DNA from: Akkermansiaceae bacterium
GTDB taxonomy: Bacteria > Verrucomicrobiota > Verrucomicrobiia > Verrucomicrobiales > Akkermansiaceae
DNA length: 38,082 nt
NCBI GenBank assembly: GCA_029252325.1
Contig: JAQXBQ010000084.1
Location: 1-38,082, forward strand
Direction of reading: 5' to 3'
The position numbers and the translations under genes are program-made. The notes under the pieces are model-generated. The model was not told where the DNA came from and searched no databases. It saw only the letters and a list, made by a program, of their open reading frames with translations. Of the stretch, positions 26,130-37,877 are shown one piece after another. Position 1 is the first letter of the stretch, and every line of letters begins with the position of its first letter.

Positions 26130-26277
26130 AAGGCGGGTAGGAGCGAAACGTCAATATCTACCCTACATAGTCTTTGAACGCTGTATATCAAGGTCGAATC
26201 GCTTATCTGCATGTAATCGTAGTCACAAAGATTATTTTATGCGTGATGTCTTGGCTCGGCTGTGGTTTGGATAGAGC

Positions 26278-27177
26278 ATGTCATTGTCTGCTGCCCCACT
26301 GATTGATTATCTACGTGAGCTTGAGGGGCGTGGGCAGAAGTATGTGAATGTAGACGATGAGGCTCGAAAGATCTTACGGGCCTTTTACATGCGTGCTCGA
26401 GCTGGAACAGGAAGCTCTGTCCAGCAAACTCAAAGTAAGGACGAGGTTGCTCAGGTTGATGTGCCTCCCGCTGTTAAAGTCAGCAACAAGCCAGTTGCCA
26501 ACTTTGCTGATGTTGAGCCGGTGCAAGACAAGCAAGCTGGTGAATTAGTAGCCAGTGGATCTTCCAAAAAAGAGCAAATAGCCTCCCTGAAGCGGCAGGT
26601 TGTAAAGTGGCCAGCGGTATCCGCACTCACGAATTTACGCAAAACAATGGTTTTCTCTGTAGGTAATCCTGACGCTGATATTATGCTAATTGGGGAAGCT
26701 CCAGGATATGATGAAGAGCGTCTTGCGGAGCCTTTTGTCGGCAAAGCAGGCCAAAAGCTAGATGGGATTTTGAAGGCAATGGGTGTAGACAGGAAAAATG
26801 CTTACATCACTAATATTGTGAAATACCGCCCCGCGATGCCAAATCAAACCACAAATAATAGGCAGCCGACGGGCTTGGAGTTGGAGGCTTTCTTGCCCTT
26901 TATCCGCAAAGAAATTGAGGTGGTAGCACCCAAGGTTATCATCGCTTTGGGTGTCACCTCTGCGCAGACCTTGCTGGCAAGCAATGAATCGGTGGCTAGC
27001 TTACGCGGTAAATTTCATCAATTTAACGCTATACCTCTTCGGGTAAGCTTCCACCCCTCTTACATTCTTCAGAATGAGGCGACTTCTGAGAAACGTAAGA
27101 TTTGGGAAGATATGCTGGCGGTCATGGATTTGCTGAAAATGCCGATCAATGAGAAGCAGCGCGGCTTTTTCACCTAG
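26278..27177 (+). CDS. Uracil-DNA glycosylase superfamily protein, family-4-like, lacking all cysteines
   Basis: GEAPGYDEERLAEPFVGKAGQKLDGILKAMG; YITNIVKYRPAMPNQTTNNRQPTGLE; HPSYILQN. No cysteine in the 299-aa translation. Confidence 0.85.
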   Translation: MSLSAAPLIDYLRELEGRGQKYVNVDDEARKILRAFYMRARAGTGSSVQQTQSKDEVAQVDVPPAVKVSNKPVANFADVEPVQDKQAGELVASGSSKKEQIASLKRQVVKWPAVSALTNLRKTMVFSVGNPDADIMLIGEAPGYDEERLAEPFVGKAGQKLDGILKAMGVDRKNAYITNIVKYRPAMPNQTTNNRQPTGLELEAFLPFIRKEIEVVAPKVIIALGVTSAQTLLASNESVASLRGKFHQFNAIPLRVSFHPSYILQNEATSEKRKIWEDMLAVMDLLKMPINEKQRGFFT

Positions 27178-27216: not shown

Positions 27217-29316
27217 ATGCTTGCACTGGGGGGCGATATGCAGTCAGTTCACGGCATGCAGACAAGTCATCCGTTTCTCGCTAGCGATTATCATATTCGT
27301 TGGTCAACATTGGCAGCTGATCACGTTGAAGCTGATATTGATAAGGGCCTAGAAGTTGCAGAAGTGAATTTGAAAAAGCTCCGTGAGCTGGATGATTCAG
27401 AACTCAACTATCAAAATACTTTTGAAGCCCTCGAAAACGCCTCGGAAGAACTTGATCGTGCATGGGGTAGGCTCAATCACTTAGATTCTGTGTGCAATGA
27501 CGAAGGCCAGCGTGCGGCACTGAATGCCGCCTTGCCTCGTGTGACTGGTTTCTATGCAGCAATCCCGCTGGATGATGCCATTTGGACGAAACTGAAGGTT
27601 TATGCCGACTCAAAGGCATTGCAAGACCTTGACGCAACAAGGAGGCGTTATGTCGAAGAGACCTGCTCAAGTTTCATCCAATCGGGAGCAAACCTTCCAG
27701 CAGATAAAAAATCGAGGGTTGCTGAGATTCAGTCGCGGCTATCTGAAGTAACTCAAAAGTTTGGTGAAAATGTCTTAGATTCGACCAATGCTTGGGAGCT
27801 TGTTATTGACGATGAATCCCGTCTCGCTGGATTACCCGAGTCTGCTAAGGCTGCGGCAGCTGCCGATGCAGAGGTAAAAGGCAAGAAGGGCATGTGGCGC
27901 TTCACCTTGCAGTATCCCTCGATGGGCCCCGTGATGCAATACGCCGATGATGATGACCTCCGCCGTGAAATCTGGGAGGCGAACTGCACCATTGGGCGTG
28001 ATGGCGACTTTGACAACACTGATCTGATCTGGGAAATTCTCAACCTCAGGCAGGAAAAAGCCGAGCTGCTGGGGTATAAAAACTTTGCCGACCTCACTCT
28101 AGAAAGGCGTATGGCTCGTAATGGTGAGGCGGCGCTGAAATTCACGGAGGATCTACACGACAGGATCGTGGAGTCGTTTGAGCAAGACACCGAGGAGCTG
28201 CAGGCATGGAAAGCGGAGCAGACGGGCATGACTCCGGGACCGATGCAACCATGGGAGCTTGGCTACTGGGCTGAGAAACGGCGCAAGGCGGAATACGATT
28301 ATGACGAAGAGGAGCTAAGGCCTTACTTTCCGCTGCCCAGTGTGATGGAGGGCATGTTTGGCATCGTCAGCAGGCTTTACAACATTCGTATCGAGGAACG
28401 TGAGACCGGTGAAGACATCGAGACCTGGCACCCCGAGTGTTGTTTCTACGATCTCTATGACAATGCTTCCGGTGACTTGCTGGGTTCATTTTATGCCGAC
28501 TGGCATCCACGTGAGAGCAAGCGCGGTGGAGCGTGGATGAATTACTTTGAAACTGGCTTGCCACCGATGGATGGAGCGCCCCGTGAACCGCATCTTGGAC
28601 TTATGGTGGGCAACATGACCAAGCCGATTGGTGATAAACCGGCACTCATGGATCACCGTGAGGTGGAGACTATCTTCCACGAATTCGGCCACCTTCTTCA
28701 CCATCTGTTAGCTGATGTTACGGTGAAGTCACTTTCCGGAACGAATGTTGCTTGGGACTTTGTTGAATTGCCGTCTCAGATTATGGAGAATTTTTGCTGG
28801 GATCGCGAAAGCCTTGATCTTTTTGCCCGTCATTATCAGACAGGAGAACCTATCCCTGAGGCTCTTTATCAGAAAATGGTAGCGGCCAGAAACTATATGA
28901 GCGCGAGCGGTTTTATGCGTCAGTTGGGACTGGGGAAACTAGATCTGGATCTGCATGTGAAGCTCGATGACTACCGTGGTAGGGACCTTGATGAGGTGGA
29001 TCGTGAAATCCTCGCAGACTACAAGGCGCCTTTGGCCACGGACGGGCCGACGATGGCGCGTCGCTTCAGCCACTTGTTCTCCTCGCCGACTGGTTACGCG
29101 GCAGGCTATTACTCCTATAAGTGGGCCGAGGTGCTGGATGCGGATGCGTTCACCCGTTTCCAGAAAGAAGGTATTCTTAACCGAGAGACAGGGCAGGCAT
29201 TTCGTGAGACAATCCTCAGCAAGGGCAACTCGGCACCCGCAGACGAACTCTATGAAGAATTCATGGGGCGTGCCCCTGATCAGACGGCATTGCTAGAGCG
29301 TTCGGGACTGGCATAG
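27217..29316 (+). CDS. prlC: M3-family metallopeptidase (oligopeptidase A-like)
   Basis: Zinc motif FHEFGHLLHH; SPTGYAAGYYSYKWAEVLDADAF. The true start may be the in-frame ATG encoding MQTSHPF at about 27256. Confidence 0.93.
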   Translation: MLALGGDMQSVHGMQTSHPFLASDYHIRWSTLAADHVEADIDKGLEVAEVNLKKLRELDDSELNYQNTFEALENASEELDRAWGRLNHLDSVCNDEGQRAALNAALPRVTGFYAAIPLDDAIWTKLKVYADSKALQDLDATRRRYVEETCSSFIQSGANLPADKKSRVAEIQSRLSEVTQKFGENVLDSTNAWELVIDDESRLAGLPESAKAAAAADAEVKGKKGMWRFTLQYPSMGPVMQYADDDDLRREIWEANCTIGRDGDFDNTDLIWEILNLRQEKAELLGYKNFADLTLERRMARNGEAALKFTEDLHDRIVESFEQDTEELQAWKAEQTGMTPGPMQPWELGYWAEKRRKAEYDYDEEELRPYFPLPSVMEGMFGIVSRLYNIRIEERETGEDIETWHPECCFYDLYDNASGDLLGSFYADWHPRESKRGGAWMNYFETGLPPMDGAPREPHLGLMVGNMTKPIGDKPALMDHREVETIFHEFGHLLHHLLADVTVKSLSGTNVAWDFVELPSQIMENFCWDRESLDLFARHYQTGEPIPEALYQKMVAARNYMSASGFMRQLGLGKLDLDLHVKLDDYRGRDLDEVDREILADYKAPLATDGPTMARRFSHLFSSPTGYAAGYYSYKWAEVLDADAFTRFQKEGILNRETGQAFRETILSKGNSAPADELYEEFMGRAPDQTALLERSGLA

Positions 29317-31466: not shown

Positions 31467-34400
31467 CTAAGGCATGGGGATTATTTCTAGATTTTCGATG
31501 GTAGCCTCGGCCTCGATATTTTGAGAGCCACTATCGATATATACACCAGCTTCGAGAGTCTCCGATAAACCAGGAATGGTTACGGTTTTGAGTAATTGGT
31601 AATCTAGGTCATCACTTGAAACCGCTATCGATATTTGATCAGCTGATCTTTCTAAGAGCATCCAAGTATTAGGCAACTCACCAGTTGTATTGATGTCAAA
31701 TTCTTCAACATCGCCATTAATATCTGTTAGCGCGCGCGCGTAGTAATTATGATCAAGTTGGATCCCTAGCTGAACAAATCGAGCATTACCCGGAGATGCC
31801 TCTTCGATAATGATTCCCACTTCAGGCCGTTCACCTCCGCTGACTAATGTTTTTACGTTTGCCAGTAATTGGAAGTTACCTGTTACGGTATTGGTGTCAG
31901 ATAAGTAACCAGAATACGAGCTGGGTTCTAGTGGTTGAGTAACATTGTGTATCAGCGTTACTTCGTTTGGATTGCTGAGTGAGTCGCTGGAGGATGCTGT
32001 GACGAAGTTATCGATACTGAACACCTGCATCACATCATTACCAAACTGAGTAGGGTTGGTTGCGATATCGGCCAGGAGTGCTGGCTGTTTAATGATTTCA
32101 ATGCCTTTGATGGCTGGGTTTTCAATAACATGGGCAAGCTCAATGGTGAGTGACTCGTCACTGACCTCGACCTCGAAGCCCTGCATCACACCGACAAACA
32201 TGGCCCCCGCATCCGTAACGACATCGTAATCATCGAGCACAGTGGAGCCTTCTATGAGAACATCAAAGACACGCTGGCCAGGTGAGCCTGTGCCTGAATA
32301 GGTTTCTGCAAAATAGAGACGCACCTCGTAATTGCCATTACTGACTGGGAAGTTCCACTGCATCTCAGGAGCTGAGGAAGAATCGTAGCGCTCACTTTGG
32401 AAAAGGGCTAAGGGAGTGCTACTCGGAACTGAGGCTGCTGATGTGATGGTGTTATTGACGGAATAAGTGTTATTAGTTTGCGAGCTGTTTACAAAGCTTG
32501 ATGGCGAGCCAGAGGTGTCAGCACTCCAGTTGACCGGCTCCGAGTCAATGGCCGTTAGTGGATTTCCACCTGCGTTTACTCGGTAGAGGACTTGGCTTTC
32601 TTGATTGATAGCCTCAACATTCCAATAAAAAGAAGAGTTGGCACTCTGTTGCGGGTTGCCGTCATCGGTGACGGTAACGGTGACTAGGTATGGGCTGGCC
32701 GTATCAGCGTCACTAGAGATGGTTCCGGAGATGAGCCCCGAAGCAGAGGCAATGGATAAGCCTGAGGGCAAGCCAGTGGCGCTGTAGCTGAGAGTATCAC
32801 CCAGGTCGCCATCAAAAGCCGTTACTTGCAAGCTGATGATGTCCTCAGCCTGATCAGTTTGATCTTCGATCGAAGTAATCACAGGCGGATTGTTTACAGT
32901 GGGTAAGGTATCTACCGTCCATGCGAATGAATCGCTCGCGCTTCCCTGCGGATTGCCATCATCGGTGACAGTAACGGTGACTTGGTATGGACTACTGATA
33001 TCTGCATCATTTGAGATGATGCCTGAGATCACACCCGAAGACGGAGAGATAGCTAAGCCGGATGGCTGTCCCGATATACTGTAAGTTAAGGTGTCGGTTG
33101 CGTTGATATCTGAAGCCATGACTTGAAGGCTAATCATATCACCCGCTGTGTCATTTTGATCATCGATGGAAACGATGACAGGGTCACTGTTGACAGGAGG
33201 CTCAGCAATCACTGTCCAGTTAAACGAGGTGCTGGTACTTTCTTGTGGGTCGCCATCATCGGTGACGGTGATAGTAACCACATAGGGGGTGGTTACATTG
33301 GCGCCATTTGCGATGGTTCCAGAGATGAGTCCTGAGGCAGGGGCAATGGACAAGCCCAAGGGCAAGTCGGCAGCACTATAGTTGAGCATGTCTCCAAGAT
33401 CGATGTCAGTCGCAGCTATCTGAAGGCTAACACTGTCTAATACTGTATTAGCCTGATCTGTGATGGAGGCGATAACCGGAGCGTTGTTCAAGGGCCCTCC
33501 AACGCCGTCGTTAAGGTCAATAATTTCAATGCCTTTGATGGCTGGATTCTGAGTGACATGTAGGAGCTCAATGGTGAGTGACTCATCACTAACCTCTACC
33601 TCGAAGCTCTGCATCACGCCGATGAACATGGCGCCGGCATCTGCCACGACATCGTAATCATCAAGGGCGATAACGTCCTCAATGGCGATATCAAAGATAC
33701 GCTGGCCAGGTGAGCCTGTGCCTGAATAGGTTTCTGCAAAATAGAGACGCACTTCGTAGTTGCCATTGCTTACGGGGAAGTTCCACTGCATCTCAGTAGC
33801 TGAGGAAGAATCGAAGCGCTCACTTTGGAAAAGGGCCAAGGGGGTGCCTAATGGCACAGAAGCACTGGCAGTGATGGCGGTGCCAATAGAGTAGGTGTTG
33901 TTGATTTCAGAGCTATTCAAAAAGGTCGATGGTGAGCCAGAGGTATCGCCACTCCAGTTAACAGGCTCTGCGTCGATGGTAGATAATGGGTTTCCTCCTG
34001 CATTCACTCGGTAAAGGTATCGACTTTCACTGGCGCCGCCATTGACAGGAATAACAAGATCCTCTGAAGAGGCATCGAACTTGACATAAATATCTCCTGC
34101 AACTTCACCATTATAATCTGGATCAAAAACAACTTGCAAATTGATACTCTTGTTAGGAGGTATGATAATAGGGAAGTTTTGAGAAATATTAATACTGATG
34201 CCAGTGTATTCTGTGGCGACAATGTTATCGACAATGACTGCTTGATCTCCACCAATGTTGCTCAAAATGATATTAGCAGTTTGTTGTTCTGATCCTGCCA
34301 CTGTAGCAAAGTCTATATAAGATGGAGTGGCTGCAAGTATGCCAGCGACTAGCGGATCTGCTGAAGGAGGGAAGGCTCCGTTGACTTGATAAATTTCCTG

Positions 34401-37400
34401 AAAGAAAATTTCATTAGAATCAATTTCAGTTGCACCTGCTGTTTTTGCGCCTGCTGCAATGTATATTACGCCGTTGTCAACGATTGCTTGTGTGGCGTGT
34501 CTGCCCCGATTAAGTGGAGTCAGAGAGCGCCATGAGTTGTCCTGTGGATTGAGCGCTTCTACTTCGTTATGAGCAGACGCTTGTTTGGTTTCGCCGCCAA
34601 TGATTAAAATTTCCCCGTTGTAGGCTGCGGCTATTGTTCCCGAGCGTTTTGTCGGTATGTCATTTGTTAATGTGCTCCAGGTATTAGAGGAGAAGTCAAA
34701 AACATCAACTTGCCCAATGGATGCTCCAAAAAAGTCAGGGGCACTTGAATCTCGGCCACCGGCAACATACATTTTATCATTAACGATAGCTGCTTGAAAG
34801 TGGTCGCGTCCACGCGGTGCGTCGGGAAGCTGTGTCCATGTTCCTGTCGCGGGATCATACTCATCAAACCATTTGACCGCTGACGCATCAGTATTGTGAC
34901 CCCCATTGTTGCCAGCTACGACATAGATTTTCCCGTTGTAAGCAATAGCTCCAGTAGACCCTCTGTTACGACCGCTTGGCAACGATGAGCATGTACTCCA
35001 AGTATCAGATATGGGATTATATATGTAGATATTATTGAGATTGTTTTCGTATGGGTATGATCCAGTCCAGGCGCCAACAATATAGATCAAGCCGTCTAAT
35101 TCAACAGTCTGAAAGTGGTGCATTTCCTCTGGTAGCGGCGCTCCGCTAGACCATATCTTTGTTGTGGGGTCGTATATTTGCACTGAGCGCCCCGTGCCAC
35201 GACCTCCGATGAGATAGTATTTATCACCTGCTTTTACATATCCATTTTCGTGGCAGGCACAACTTGATGGGGCAGGCTCTTCAGGAGGAAGGTCTTCCCA
35301 ATTACCTGGAGCCGATGTGTTTACTGGCATGATATTGATGAAGTCCCATTGGGCCGTGAAATCTCCATCGTCATTGGTTGCTGCGGCGATCACACCGACA
35401 GCCAAAGCCTCTGTGCCTTGAAGTGTGCTCAGTAAGCTACCTGTAAGTTGGACTGGACTACCGAGGTTTATGGTTGTCTCGCCCTCGAGACGATACTGAG
35501 GCTGTGCCGTGCCTAGCGTTGGATCCACCAAGAGGAAGAGACTTAAATTCAAGAGCTCTGTAAGGTCATTTATGTTGGGTGATGGCGTAAGTGTTTCTGC
35601 AACAGCATTGTTCTCATGTGTTAGGGTTAGCTCGGGGCCATTACTTGTAGCGACGACAGTGAATGCCAAATAATTATCCTGATCACCAGTGCCGATATAA
35701 AATCCCATAGACCTTCCGTCTGCGGGTATTGTGCTGCCTAGAACGTTGCCAGGCATGTAGGTATGAACGATGAACGGCCCGGAGGTGGAATTAACATCTA
35801 CGCCGAACTGTAGCGCATTTTCTTGATTGTTTTGAATGCCCAGCGCACTGGACTGCGTAACACCATCGATGGTTAAAACTCCGGCAGTGCCGCCCGCTAT
35901 GAGTAAGTTGTCGTCCATTAGATTTAAATAATCATCAATGCCGTTACTCATTAGTCCAGTAAACCCCAACCCATAAAACCCGGTTCCTGGATCACCATTG
36001 AGCATAGGGTAATCAATGGGAATAGAGGCGGAACGACCGTTAGACTTGTCTCGCGGATATGGATCTTTGCTGTCTATAATGCCGTCATTGTCATCATCAT
36101 CGTCGTATAGGTCTGATATGATATCTTTGTCAAAATCCGAGGGGATGTCTGCGGCCGAGCATGGACTAGTGCCATTATCAATTTCTTCTGCATTCGAATA
36201 GCCATCTTGGTCTTCATCAATGTTGGGGTCGTAGGAGCCAGTGCAAACAAAACTGTCATTGCCATCATAATCTGATGGTTCGAATATGGTAATGTTATTG
36301 CTTCCATATGTAATGACCCAAATGGATCCAGGAAATATTGCAGCGTCTCCTTGAGCGATTACGTCAATGGGTAAGGCTCCAAAATTACTCGCGAATGTTT
36401 CAACATTGGTTGCCTCAGTGCCTGCGGGACTCAATTCGATACGCTCGAGATTGCCACCAAAGCTTGTAACCAATAAATTACCTCGAAGGCTGCCATCGAA
36501 ATTCGATGCCGTGTATTCAGCAATGCCATTAGTCGAAGTGGTAAATGTGGCCAAGGCATTGTCATCTACTCCTGGTTGGAGATAGTCACCCTCTATGGGG
36601 TTCGCCATGCTAGGTGGCACGGGCGGCCAATCAACAGGAAGATCAGCGGCTTGAGTTCGCCATGTTCCTTGAGAGGCATCACCTGAGTCGTTGGTGTATA
36701 AGCCTGCGCCGGTTGGGTTAGCGCGTATGGGAGTTGGGTGGCCACCGTAAAAGCCTTGGCCAGTGATCAAATGTAAGTTGTCTAAATTGTTTACCTTCGG
36801 GTCTCCTCCTGGTCCAGGTCCCGCTGAGCCTGGCTCACCTACCAGGTATTGATTGGTAGCAGAAGAAACGCCGTCTATTGCTGGGCCTTCTCCATCAGGG
36901 TGTCCACCCCAGCCGCCGTTAGGCCCATTATCAACCGTATACATTCTACCTTCGTTGCTGGCCGAGCTTGTTATTAAGAGGTCGTACGCGTTTCGTAAGC
37001 CCGTGGCATATATTTGTACTGGTCCTCCCTCAACTAGTTTGGCCTGGTTCAAGCCGTCGTTGCCTCCCCATGGATCGTTTACATCATTATTACCCGTGTT
37101 ATTGCTACGGGTTGGATCATCTAGCGTAGGCAGGTCATACTTGTAAAAAGCCCCCACGCTTGCATCGAATTTTGTGGGGGTGGAGTCAATTATATCGAGA
37201 TCGATAGAGAGTATAGCACATGAGTATGCATATTCTGTCAAAGAGGCAAAATTCTGCGAAGGTGACCCAGAGTTAGTATTACCCCCGATAACTGTGTAAA
37301 GAGTGTTGGTGGCTTCATCAAGTTGGATGCCATTGATAGAGTGATTTTCTTCTGAGCGAGGGAAGCCACGAATCAAGTCCACTTTATCCCAACTATTCCC

Positions 37401-37877
37401 ATTCCATGTGAGGCGTGAGAGCACTCCAGAATTAGTGTCTAGATTAGTGTCACCATCGGGGCCAGCAATACGAGGATCGCTTGAGCTGACATAAAGAATG
37501 GGATTGAGTTCGGTTCCTGATACAAAAATTCCAGTTACTTGACGCTTACCTAGACTATTATTGATTGTTCCATCATCATCATGGTTGGGTATATTTTTAA
37601 TCAAAAATATAGTTTCGACATTCGTTACTTCGTAATTGTTAGTGCCTTGCCGGCGAATGGTGTAGGCGTAGATCGTGCCGTCCTGTTGCGATACATAGAG
37701 ACGACCATCTGGACCGAATTGTAAAGATGTTGGATTGTTCAGTGCTTCTCCTTGTAATTCACTTGGTGTGAAGTTAATTGCGGCTTGTGAACTGGGCGTA
37801 AAGTAAATGACAATCGTGCAAAATAGAAACGATAGTAAAATATTTTTTAGAGTGCTGGGTGCGTTTGACAGTGTCAT
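31467..37877 (-). CDS. 2136-aa secreted multidomain protein: glucose/sorbosone-dehydrogenase-like beta-propeller, TSP3-like Ca-binding linker, Kelch repeats, two malectin-like modules flanking three Ig-like modules
   Basis: Signal peptide; LQGEALNNPTSLQFGPDGRLYVSQQDGTIYAY; Asp-rich DEDQDGYSNAEEIDNGTSPCS...YDDDDDNDGIIDSKDPYP; Kelch units (YNGKIYVVAGNNGG); malectin-like YRVNAGGNPL...NYEVRLYFAETYSGTGSPGQR[IV]FD; cadherin/He_PIG-like repeats. Confidence 0.88.
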   Translation of the reverse strand: MTLSNAPSTLKNILLSFLFCTIVIYFTPSSQAAINFTPSELQGEALNNPTSLQFGPDGRLYVSQQDGTIYAYTIRRQGTNNYEVTNVETIFLIKNIPNHDDDGTINNSLGKRQVTGIFVSGTELNPILYVSSSDPRIAGPDGDTNLDTNSGVLSRLTWNGNSWDKVDLIRGFPRSEENHSINGIQLDEATNTLYTVIGGNTNSGSPSQNFASLTEYAYSCAILSIDLDIIDSTPTKFDASVGAFYKYDLPTLDDPTRSNNTGNNDVNDPWGGNDGLNQAKLVEGGPVQIYATGLRNAYDLLITSSASNEGRMYTVDNGPNGGWGGHPDGEGPAIDGVSSATNQYLVGEPGSAGPGPGGDPKVNNLDNLHLITGQGFYGGHPTPIRANPTGAGLYTNDSGDASQGTWRTQAADLPVDWPPVPPSMANPIEGDYLQPGVDDNALATFTTSTNGIAEYTASNFDGSLRGNLLVTSFGGNLERIELSPAGTEATNVETFASNFGALPIDVIAQGDAAIFPGSIWVITYGSNNITIFEPSDYDGNDSFVCTGSYDPNIDEDQDGYSNAEEIDNGTSPCSAADIPSDFDKDIISDLYDDDDDNDGIIDSKDPYPRDKSNGRSASIPIDYPMLNGDPGTGFYGLGFTGLMSNGIDDYLNLMDDNLLIAGGTAGVLTIDGVTQSSALGIQNNQENALQFGVDVNSTSGPFIVHTYMPGNVLGSTIPADGRSMGFYIGTGDQDNYLAFTVVATSNGPELTLTHENNAVAETLTPSPNINDLTELLNLSLFLLVDPTLGTAQPQYRLEGETTINLGSPVQLTGSLLSTLQGTEALAVGVIAAATNDDGDFTAQWDFINIMPVNTSAPGNWEDLPPEEPAPSSCACHENGYVKAGDKYYLIGGRGTGRSVQIYDPTTKIWSSGAPLPEEMHHFQTVELDGLIYIVGAWTGSYPYENNLNNIYIYNPISDTWSTCSSLPSGRNRGSTGAIAYNGKIYVVAGNNGGHNTDASAVKWFDEYDPATGTWTQLPDAPRGRDHFQAAIVNDKMYVAGGRDSSAPDFFGASIGQVDVFDFSSNTWSTLTNDIPTKRSGTIAAAYNGEILIIGGETKQASAHNEVEALNPQDNSWRSLTPLNRGRHATQAIVDNGVIYIAAGAKTAGATEIDSNEIFFQEIYQVNGAFPPSADPLVAGILAATPSYIDFATVAGSEQQTANIILSNIGGDQAVIVDNIVATEYTGISINISQNFPIIIPPNKSINLQVVFDPDYNGEVAGDIYVKFDASSEDLVIPVNGGASESRYLYRVNAGGNPLSTIDAEPVNWSGDTSGSPSTFLNSSEINNTYSIGTAITASASVPLGTPLALFQSERFDSSSATEMQWNFPVSNGNYEVRLYFAETYSGTGSPGQRIFDIAIEDVIALDDYDVVADAGAMFIGVMQSFEVEVSDESLTIELLHVTQNPAIKGIEIIDLNDGVGGPLNNAPVIASITDQANTVLDSVSLQIAATDIDLGDMLNYSAADLPLGLSIAPASGLISGTIANGANVTTPYVVTITVTDDGDPQESTSTSFNWTVIAEPPVNSDPVIVSIDDQNDTAGDMISLQVMASDINATDTLTYSISGQPSGLAISPSSGVISGIISNDADISSPYQVTVTVTDDGNPQGSASDSFAWTVDTLPTVNNPPVITSIEDQTDQAEDIISLQVTAFDGDLGDTLSYSATGLPSGLSIASASGLISGTISSDADTASPYLVTVTVTDDGNPQQSANSSFYWNVEAINQESQVLYRVNAGGNPLTAIDSEPVNWSADTSGSPSSFVNSSQTNNTYSVNNTITSAASVPSSTPLALFQSERYDSSSAPEMQWNFPVSNGNYEVRLYFAETYSGTGSPGQRVFDVLIEGSTVLDDYDVVTDAGAMFVGVMQGFEVEVSDESLTIELAHVIENPAIKGIEIIKQPALLADIATNPTQFGNDVMQVFSIDNFVTASSSDSLSNPNEVTLIHNVTQPLEPSSYSGYLSDTNTVTGNFQLLANVKTLVSGGERPEVGIIIEEASPGNARFVQLGIQLDHNYYARALTDINGDVEEFDINTTGELPNTWMLLERSADQISIAVSSDDLDYQLLKTVTIPGLSETLEAGVYIDSGSQNIEAEATIENLEIIPMP
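32094..32589 (-). repeat. Malectin-module repeat, copy B (C-terminal copy)
   Basis: Aligns without length change to 33522-34017 at a constant offset of 1428 bp, including a 54-bp identical block (32271-32324). Confidence 0.88.
32600..33490 (-). repeat. Three tandem Ig/cadherin-like modules (approximate limits)
   Basis: Protein units NAPVIASITDQ..., NSDPVIVSIDDQ..., NNPPVITSIEDQ..., each with SGLISGTI/SGVISGII and PY.VT[IV]TVTDDG[DN]PQ.S. Confidence 0.88.
33522..34017 (-). repeat. Malectin-module repeat, copy A (N-terminal copy)
   Basis: Counterpart of 32094-32589; identical block at 33699-33752. Confidence 0.88.
34430..35270 (-). repeat. Kelch-like repeat array (about five units, approximate limits)
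   Basis: Repeated pattern GDKYYLIGGRG..., DGLIYIVGAWTG..., NGKIYVVAGNNGG..., NDKMYVAGGRD..., NGEILIIGGETK..., NGVIYIAAGAK with W-containing turns (IWSSGAPLP, TWSTCSSLP, TWTQLPDAP). Confidence 0.8.

Follow-up and report, generated by a model that had tools for sequence, protein, structure and literature searches.

In canonical family-4 uracil-DNA glycosylases (UDGs), a [4Fe-4S] cluster ties an N-terminal segment to the loop that runs from the third cysteine ligand to the fourth. The role of such clusters in DNA glycosylases, i.e., in structure, DNA recognition, or redox signaling through DNA, has long been disputed. Mutational work on the Thermus thermophilus enzyme UDGa assigned the pocket to E41, G42, E47, F54, N80, and H155, and coordination of the water to N89 (PMC5387724). 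When ligand cysteines of the Pyrococcus and Archaeoglobus family-4 UDGs were changed to serine, activity went down by only about 40%, and the cluster was judged to stabilize the protein, above all the loop anchored by two of the cysteines (PMC5295032). The loss of ligands with retention of catalytic residues, in a family defined by its iron–sulfur cluster, offers a natural experiment on the purpose of that cluster. Here, we analyze such a case, encoded in a 38,082-nucleotide stretch of an Akkermansiaceae genome (hereafter, the window).

Gene, family assignment, and predicted fold

The gene encodes a protein of 299 aa without any cysteine, as the earlier note had stated and translation confirmed, and the motifs quoted there match the sequence exactly. 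Its features are as follows (C1 to C4 denote the four canonical cysteine positions, placed by alignment):

26272–26274, + strand: in-frame TAG one codon 5′ of the UDG ATG, bounding the N-terminus
26278–27177, + strand: coding sequence of the cysteine-free family-4 UDG (ATG start, 299 aa plus stop, 0 Cys)
26293–26400, + strand: predicted conserved N-terminal helix pair, residues 6–41 (LIDYLRELEGRGQ...DDEARKILRAFY; DSSP helices 6–17 and 27–41)
26404–26562, + strand: weakly conserved low-complexity linker, residues 43–95 (pLDDT 56–74 over most of it)
26608–26619, + strand: former CxxC ligand sites, now W111 (C1, 26608–26610) and V114 (C2, 26617–26619)
26692–26715, + strand: motif 1, GEAPGYDE, with E140, A141, and E146 (Thermus E41, G42, and E47)
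26812–26826, + strand: N179 (Thermus N80, uracil-binding), then IVK, then Y183 (C3, 26824–26826), the former third ligand of KCRP
26857–26862, + strand: N194-R195 of the motif 3 loop; N194 corresponds to Thermus N89, the catalytic-water Asn
26890–26892, + strand: former fourth ligand site (C4), now F205
27052–27060, + strand: motif 2, HPS; H259 corresponds to Thermus H155
27091–27171, + strand: conserved C-terminal tail, KRKxWEDMLxVM...PINEKQRGFF, class-wide

Since the TAG lies one codon upstream of the ATG, and orthologues have in common with the window protein both the start point and an L-x-x-Y-L-x-x-L motif, a hidden frameshift or upstream start that would restore a cysteine-bearing N-terminus can be ruled out. 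The low-complexity N-terminal extension of ~100 aa described earlier holds for approximately residues 43–95, while residues 6–41 form the conserved predicted helix pair instead. The C-terminal tail is also present in siblings with all four cysteines (C-C-C-C, ligand states being written from C1 to C4) and thus predates the cysteine loss.

Profile comparison with the UDG families, one of the checks proposed at the outset, placed the protein in family 4. It matched the Pfam UDG model with 112.9 bits and the NCBIfam family-4 model TIGR00758 with 156.8 bits (cut-off 125.3), while reaching 127.3 bits against a cut-off of 189.95 for the UdgX model TIGR03914; it also scored below the cut-off of the archaeal type-4 equivalog model (NCBIfam). 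Among solved structures, the best sequence matches were family-4 UDGs (Thermus 1ui0, E 5e-34), compared to E 0.049 for the family-5 structure 2d3y, i.e., family 5 (UDGb) has the superfamily fold in common but is a far weaker sequence match, and membership in it was not supported. AlphaFold predicted a confident family-4 fold (mean pLDDT 89.6, about 97–99 over most of the core), and a fold search gave as its top matches the family-4 UDGs from Thermus, Thermotoga, and Sulfolobus (1ui1, E 2.5e-19, TM 0.87 by target length). UdgX is close to the window protein in fold and sequence, but UdgX identity was rejected on the failed cut-off, a GEAPG rather than GEQPG motif, and the absence of the KRRIH loop, which the earlier note had rightly found missing; the covalent (cross-linking) His of UdgX is likewise lacking. 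With Thermus UDGa (1ui0/1ui1) the protein shares the fold, motifs 1–3, seven functional positions, and HMM membership; it differs from it by the absence of [4Fe-4S] ligands, by an NQTT insert, placed between RP and NNR, that lengthens the loop, and by the added N-terminal helices and QRGFF tail. With W111, V114, Y183, and F205 in place of the four cysteines of family 4, the protein is, judged by its sequence, a cluster-free variant homologous to family 4 rather than a canonical member.

Active site and predicted activity

The residues that define the family-4 motifs, i.e., E140, A141, E146, F153, N179, N194, and H259, are all present and match the seven functional residues of Thermus UDGa (7/7), and most orthologues likewise retain every pocket and catalytic residue. 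All canonical class members (45/45) have alanine at the position of Thermus G42, which is normal for the class. This full agreement with active family-4 enzymes (PMC5387724) speaks against the earlier proposal that the window protein is an altered-function member. Across four close lineage pairs, dN/dS was about 0.03–0.09 (dN about 0.006–0.028 versus dS 0.15–0.52), and the lineage is under purifying selection.

Taken together, the intact active site, the purifying selection, the AlphaFold and fold-search matches, the ~40% activity loss of cysteine mutants elsewhere, and the lack of any family-1 Ung (TIGR00628) match in the source genome and 57 relatives suggest that the window protein is most likely an active family-4 UDG working without an iron–sulfur cluster (probability about 0.72), both the activity and the absence of the cluster being predicted from sequence, a structural model, and analogy. 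In such an enzyme, uracil would be flipped into the pocket of E140, A141, E146, F153, and N179, the leaving uracil would be stabilized by H259, and the attacking water would be positioned by N194, as in Thermus UDGa. The tie otherwise provided by the cluster would be replaced by hydrophobic and aromatic packing, most likely the role of the residues that now occupy the ligand sites (W111, V114, Y183, and F205). R184 and R195 of the C3–C4 loop are invariant.

A different outcome, which we consider unlikely, is that the fold has been kept and uracil excision abandoned, the protein now binding DNA or partner proteins, or acting on another base, while uracil is repaired by SMUG1. The gene for the latter is present, as the sole other UDG-superfamily gene found in the genome:

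14876–15727, + strand: SMUG1 (family 3; E 3.3e-74 to Geobacter SMUG1)

SMUG1 could carry the uracil-repair load and relax the need for family-4 activity. Abandonment of excision would also fit the altered pockets of several paralogues, with active-site residues lost in Akkermansia paralogues (L105, L108, L110, L111) and in L031 and L129, and two ORFs (L125:231-1034, + strand; L126:218-985, + strand) in which the catalytic motifs are gone and no Pfam UDG match was obtained, although both the N-terminal helix pair and the C-terminal tail persist. Because of these losses, catalysis is not essential everywhere. One group (G017, G029) has no recognizable UDG left. However, substrate shifts in the UDG superfamily are usually accompanied by motif changes, and in the window protein, as in most orthologues, a complete set of pocket and catalytic residues would be unlikely to last under purifying selection without catalysis.

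The Akkermansia-type genus g3 (L105, L108, L110, L111; f and g codes are family and genus labels internal to this analysis) carries a second cysteine-poor paralogue with an altered pocket, e.g., Asp for the motif 1 Glu and His for the pocket Asn. Both L125 and L126 are small genomes (about 1.5 Mb) from the same family; for L126, DNA polymerase III psi came up as a sub-threshold match (E 0.086), which we regard as a lead only.

The QRGFF tail is class-wide, absent in the other classes sampled, and modeled by AlphaFold as a short helix with high confidence. We tentatively consider that the order-level lineage may have swapped the cluster for an aromatic-hydrophobic plug, and that its N-terminal helices and QRGFF tail may also carry a conserved non-catalytic role, perhaps attachment to the replication clamp, that would have outlived catalysis in some members. 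Separately, the tail (27148–27171) resembles the bacterial clamp-binding pentapeptide, for which the consensus is QL(S/D)LF (PMC9690074).

Distribution and history of the ligand loss

Of 58 genomes from the order (source genome included), 54 contain a match to the window protein. We tabulated the four ligand positions across the class, sampling many of its families, and in further classes of the same phylum. In the order of the window, C3 was lost in all 56 sampled proteins, to F or Y and rarely to another residue, and the N-terminal CxxC pair was lost in nearly all of them; C4 was frequently retained in the order, the window protein and those closest to it being among the members without it. 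Outside the order, C-C-C-C was read in 45/45 class siblings belonging to other families and in all proteins sampled from further classes (21/21). Some of these class members (L034, L041, and others) are close homologues that share the C-terminal tail and have a loop insert of the same kind, yet retain all four cysteines, unlike the window protein. A neighboring group of families was mostly in an intermediate state, C-C-W-C or D-C-W-C, and Tyr occupied C3 in two small families (f101, f104). In a separate collection of 80 named loci from Akkermansia muciniphila, Haloferula, Luteolibacter, Roseibacillus, Rubritalea, Persicirhabdus, and Prosthecobacter, no locus had more than two of the four ligand cysteines. 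From these alignments, ligand loss is clade-wide and includes the gut microbe Akkermansia.

Close relatives thus do not keep the four cysteines, and a local degenerate copy was ruled out by the uniformity of the cysteine-loss state through genus and order. The earlier suggestion of a distinct cluster-free lineage is supported: the ligand loss is old and extends through the clade, and the lineage is under purifying selection. No published account of a cysteine-free family-4 UDG, or of an already characterized cluster-free group in this family, was found in the open-access literature.

It is quite improbable that the gene is degenerating and on its way out, with the cysteine loss a mark of decay: the stepwise erosion of ligands, the degenerate paralogues, and the lack of a recognizable UDG in G017 and G029 could be read in this way, but the low dN/dS, the intact active site, the presence of the gene in 54 of 58 genomes, and a state uniform across many genera contradict it. 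We also give very little credence to a cluster or other metal still held via non-cysteine ligands or a dimer interface. Ligand residues can vary in the superfamily, as illustrated by UdgX-like relatives with His at the third position (C-C-H-C), but none of the W, V, Y, and F found at the four sites is a usual cluster ligand, and the protein has no cysteine to offer.

On trees built without the cysteine columns, C3-lost proteins clustered, and the C3 state required two changes within the phylum on the core tree. Constraining all verrucomicrobial losses to one clade was not rejected (p-AU 0.53). Since the large verrucomicrobial C3-lost clade was weakly supported in the careful tree (58/72), more than one loss may have occurred within the phylum; one suffices, and a single verrucomicrobial loss followed by stepwise erosion is compatible with the tree. 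Joining the alphaproteobacterial forms with the verrucomicrobial losses was rejected (p-AU 0.017), which excludes a single loss for all cysteine-poor forms and implies at least two independent losses, in the phylum Verrucomicrobiota and in Alphaproteobacteria. In the aligned sequences, both losses turned the third cysteine aromatic, and the most likely order of events is C3 to an aromatic residue first, then the N-terminal pair, then C4.

The survey outside the phylum was small and covered plasmids, phages, and viral contigs. Alphaproteobacterial family-4 UDGs (L313, L319, L320, L321) were F-C-W-C or F-C-W-L, and two contigs from a phage collection (L317, L318) were F-C-W-C. In the alphaproteobacterial enzymes (Azospirillum, Tritonibacter), as in the window protein, C1 and C3 are gone, Trp standing at C3; their loss was independent, and unlike the window protein they keep C2 and, in most cases, C4. 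The Azospirillum protein passes as NCBIfam family 4. Most ligand cysteines were also missing, in weaker alignments, from UDGs on viral contigs L260, L273, L276, L282–L284, L289, L292, and L297, many of which lie within long ORFs (about 660 aa or more).

Among homologues in related bacteria, the number of ligand cysteines runs from four through three, two, and one down to none, a natural series including cultured members (Akkermansia muciniphila, Haloferula, Luteolibacter), to which the alphaproteobacterial loss adds an independent case with the third cysteine again aromatic. If the cluster-free forms are efficient enzymes, these organisms would repair uracil with no need for a cluster-dependent redox search, and the series would reveal which changes compensate.

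Neighboring genes and other repair enzymes

The gene adjoining the UDG encodes a peptidase:

27217–29316, + strand: M3-family oligopeptidase, adjacency to the UDG kept in the genus and in some related genera

Beyond this adjacency, no functional link between the UDG and its neighbors was evident, and the context is not one of repair. Three window proteins, including the UDG, had no PADLOC match to an anti-phage system, and a 2136-aa ORF (31467–37877, − strand) had no PADLOC match.

An organism-wide abandonment of iron–sulfur clusters in DNA repair can be dismissed, as we found no evidence supporting it and it is contradicted by MutY, which keeps the cluster motif C-x6-C-x2-C-x5-C in the source genome, and by Nth, which has four cysteines in the source genome and in the tails read from 18 further relatives. 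With four cysteines kept in each of these enzymes, cluster loss is particular to the family-4 UDG. Endonuclease III from the order (L323, L327–L345) has four cysteines of the cluster type, unusually spaced in most copies as C-x4-C-x4-C-x2-C and not C-x6-C-x2-C-x5-C.
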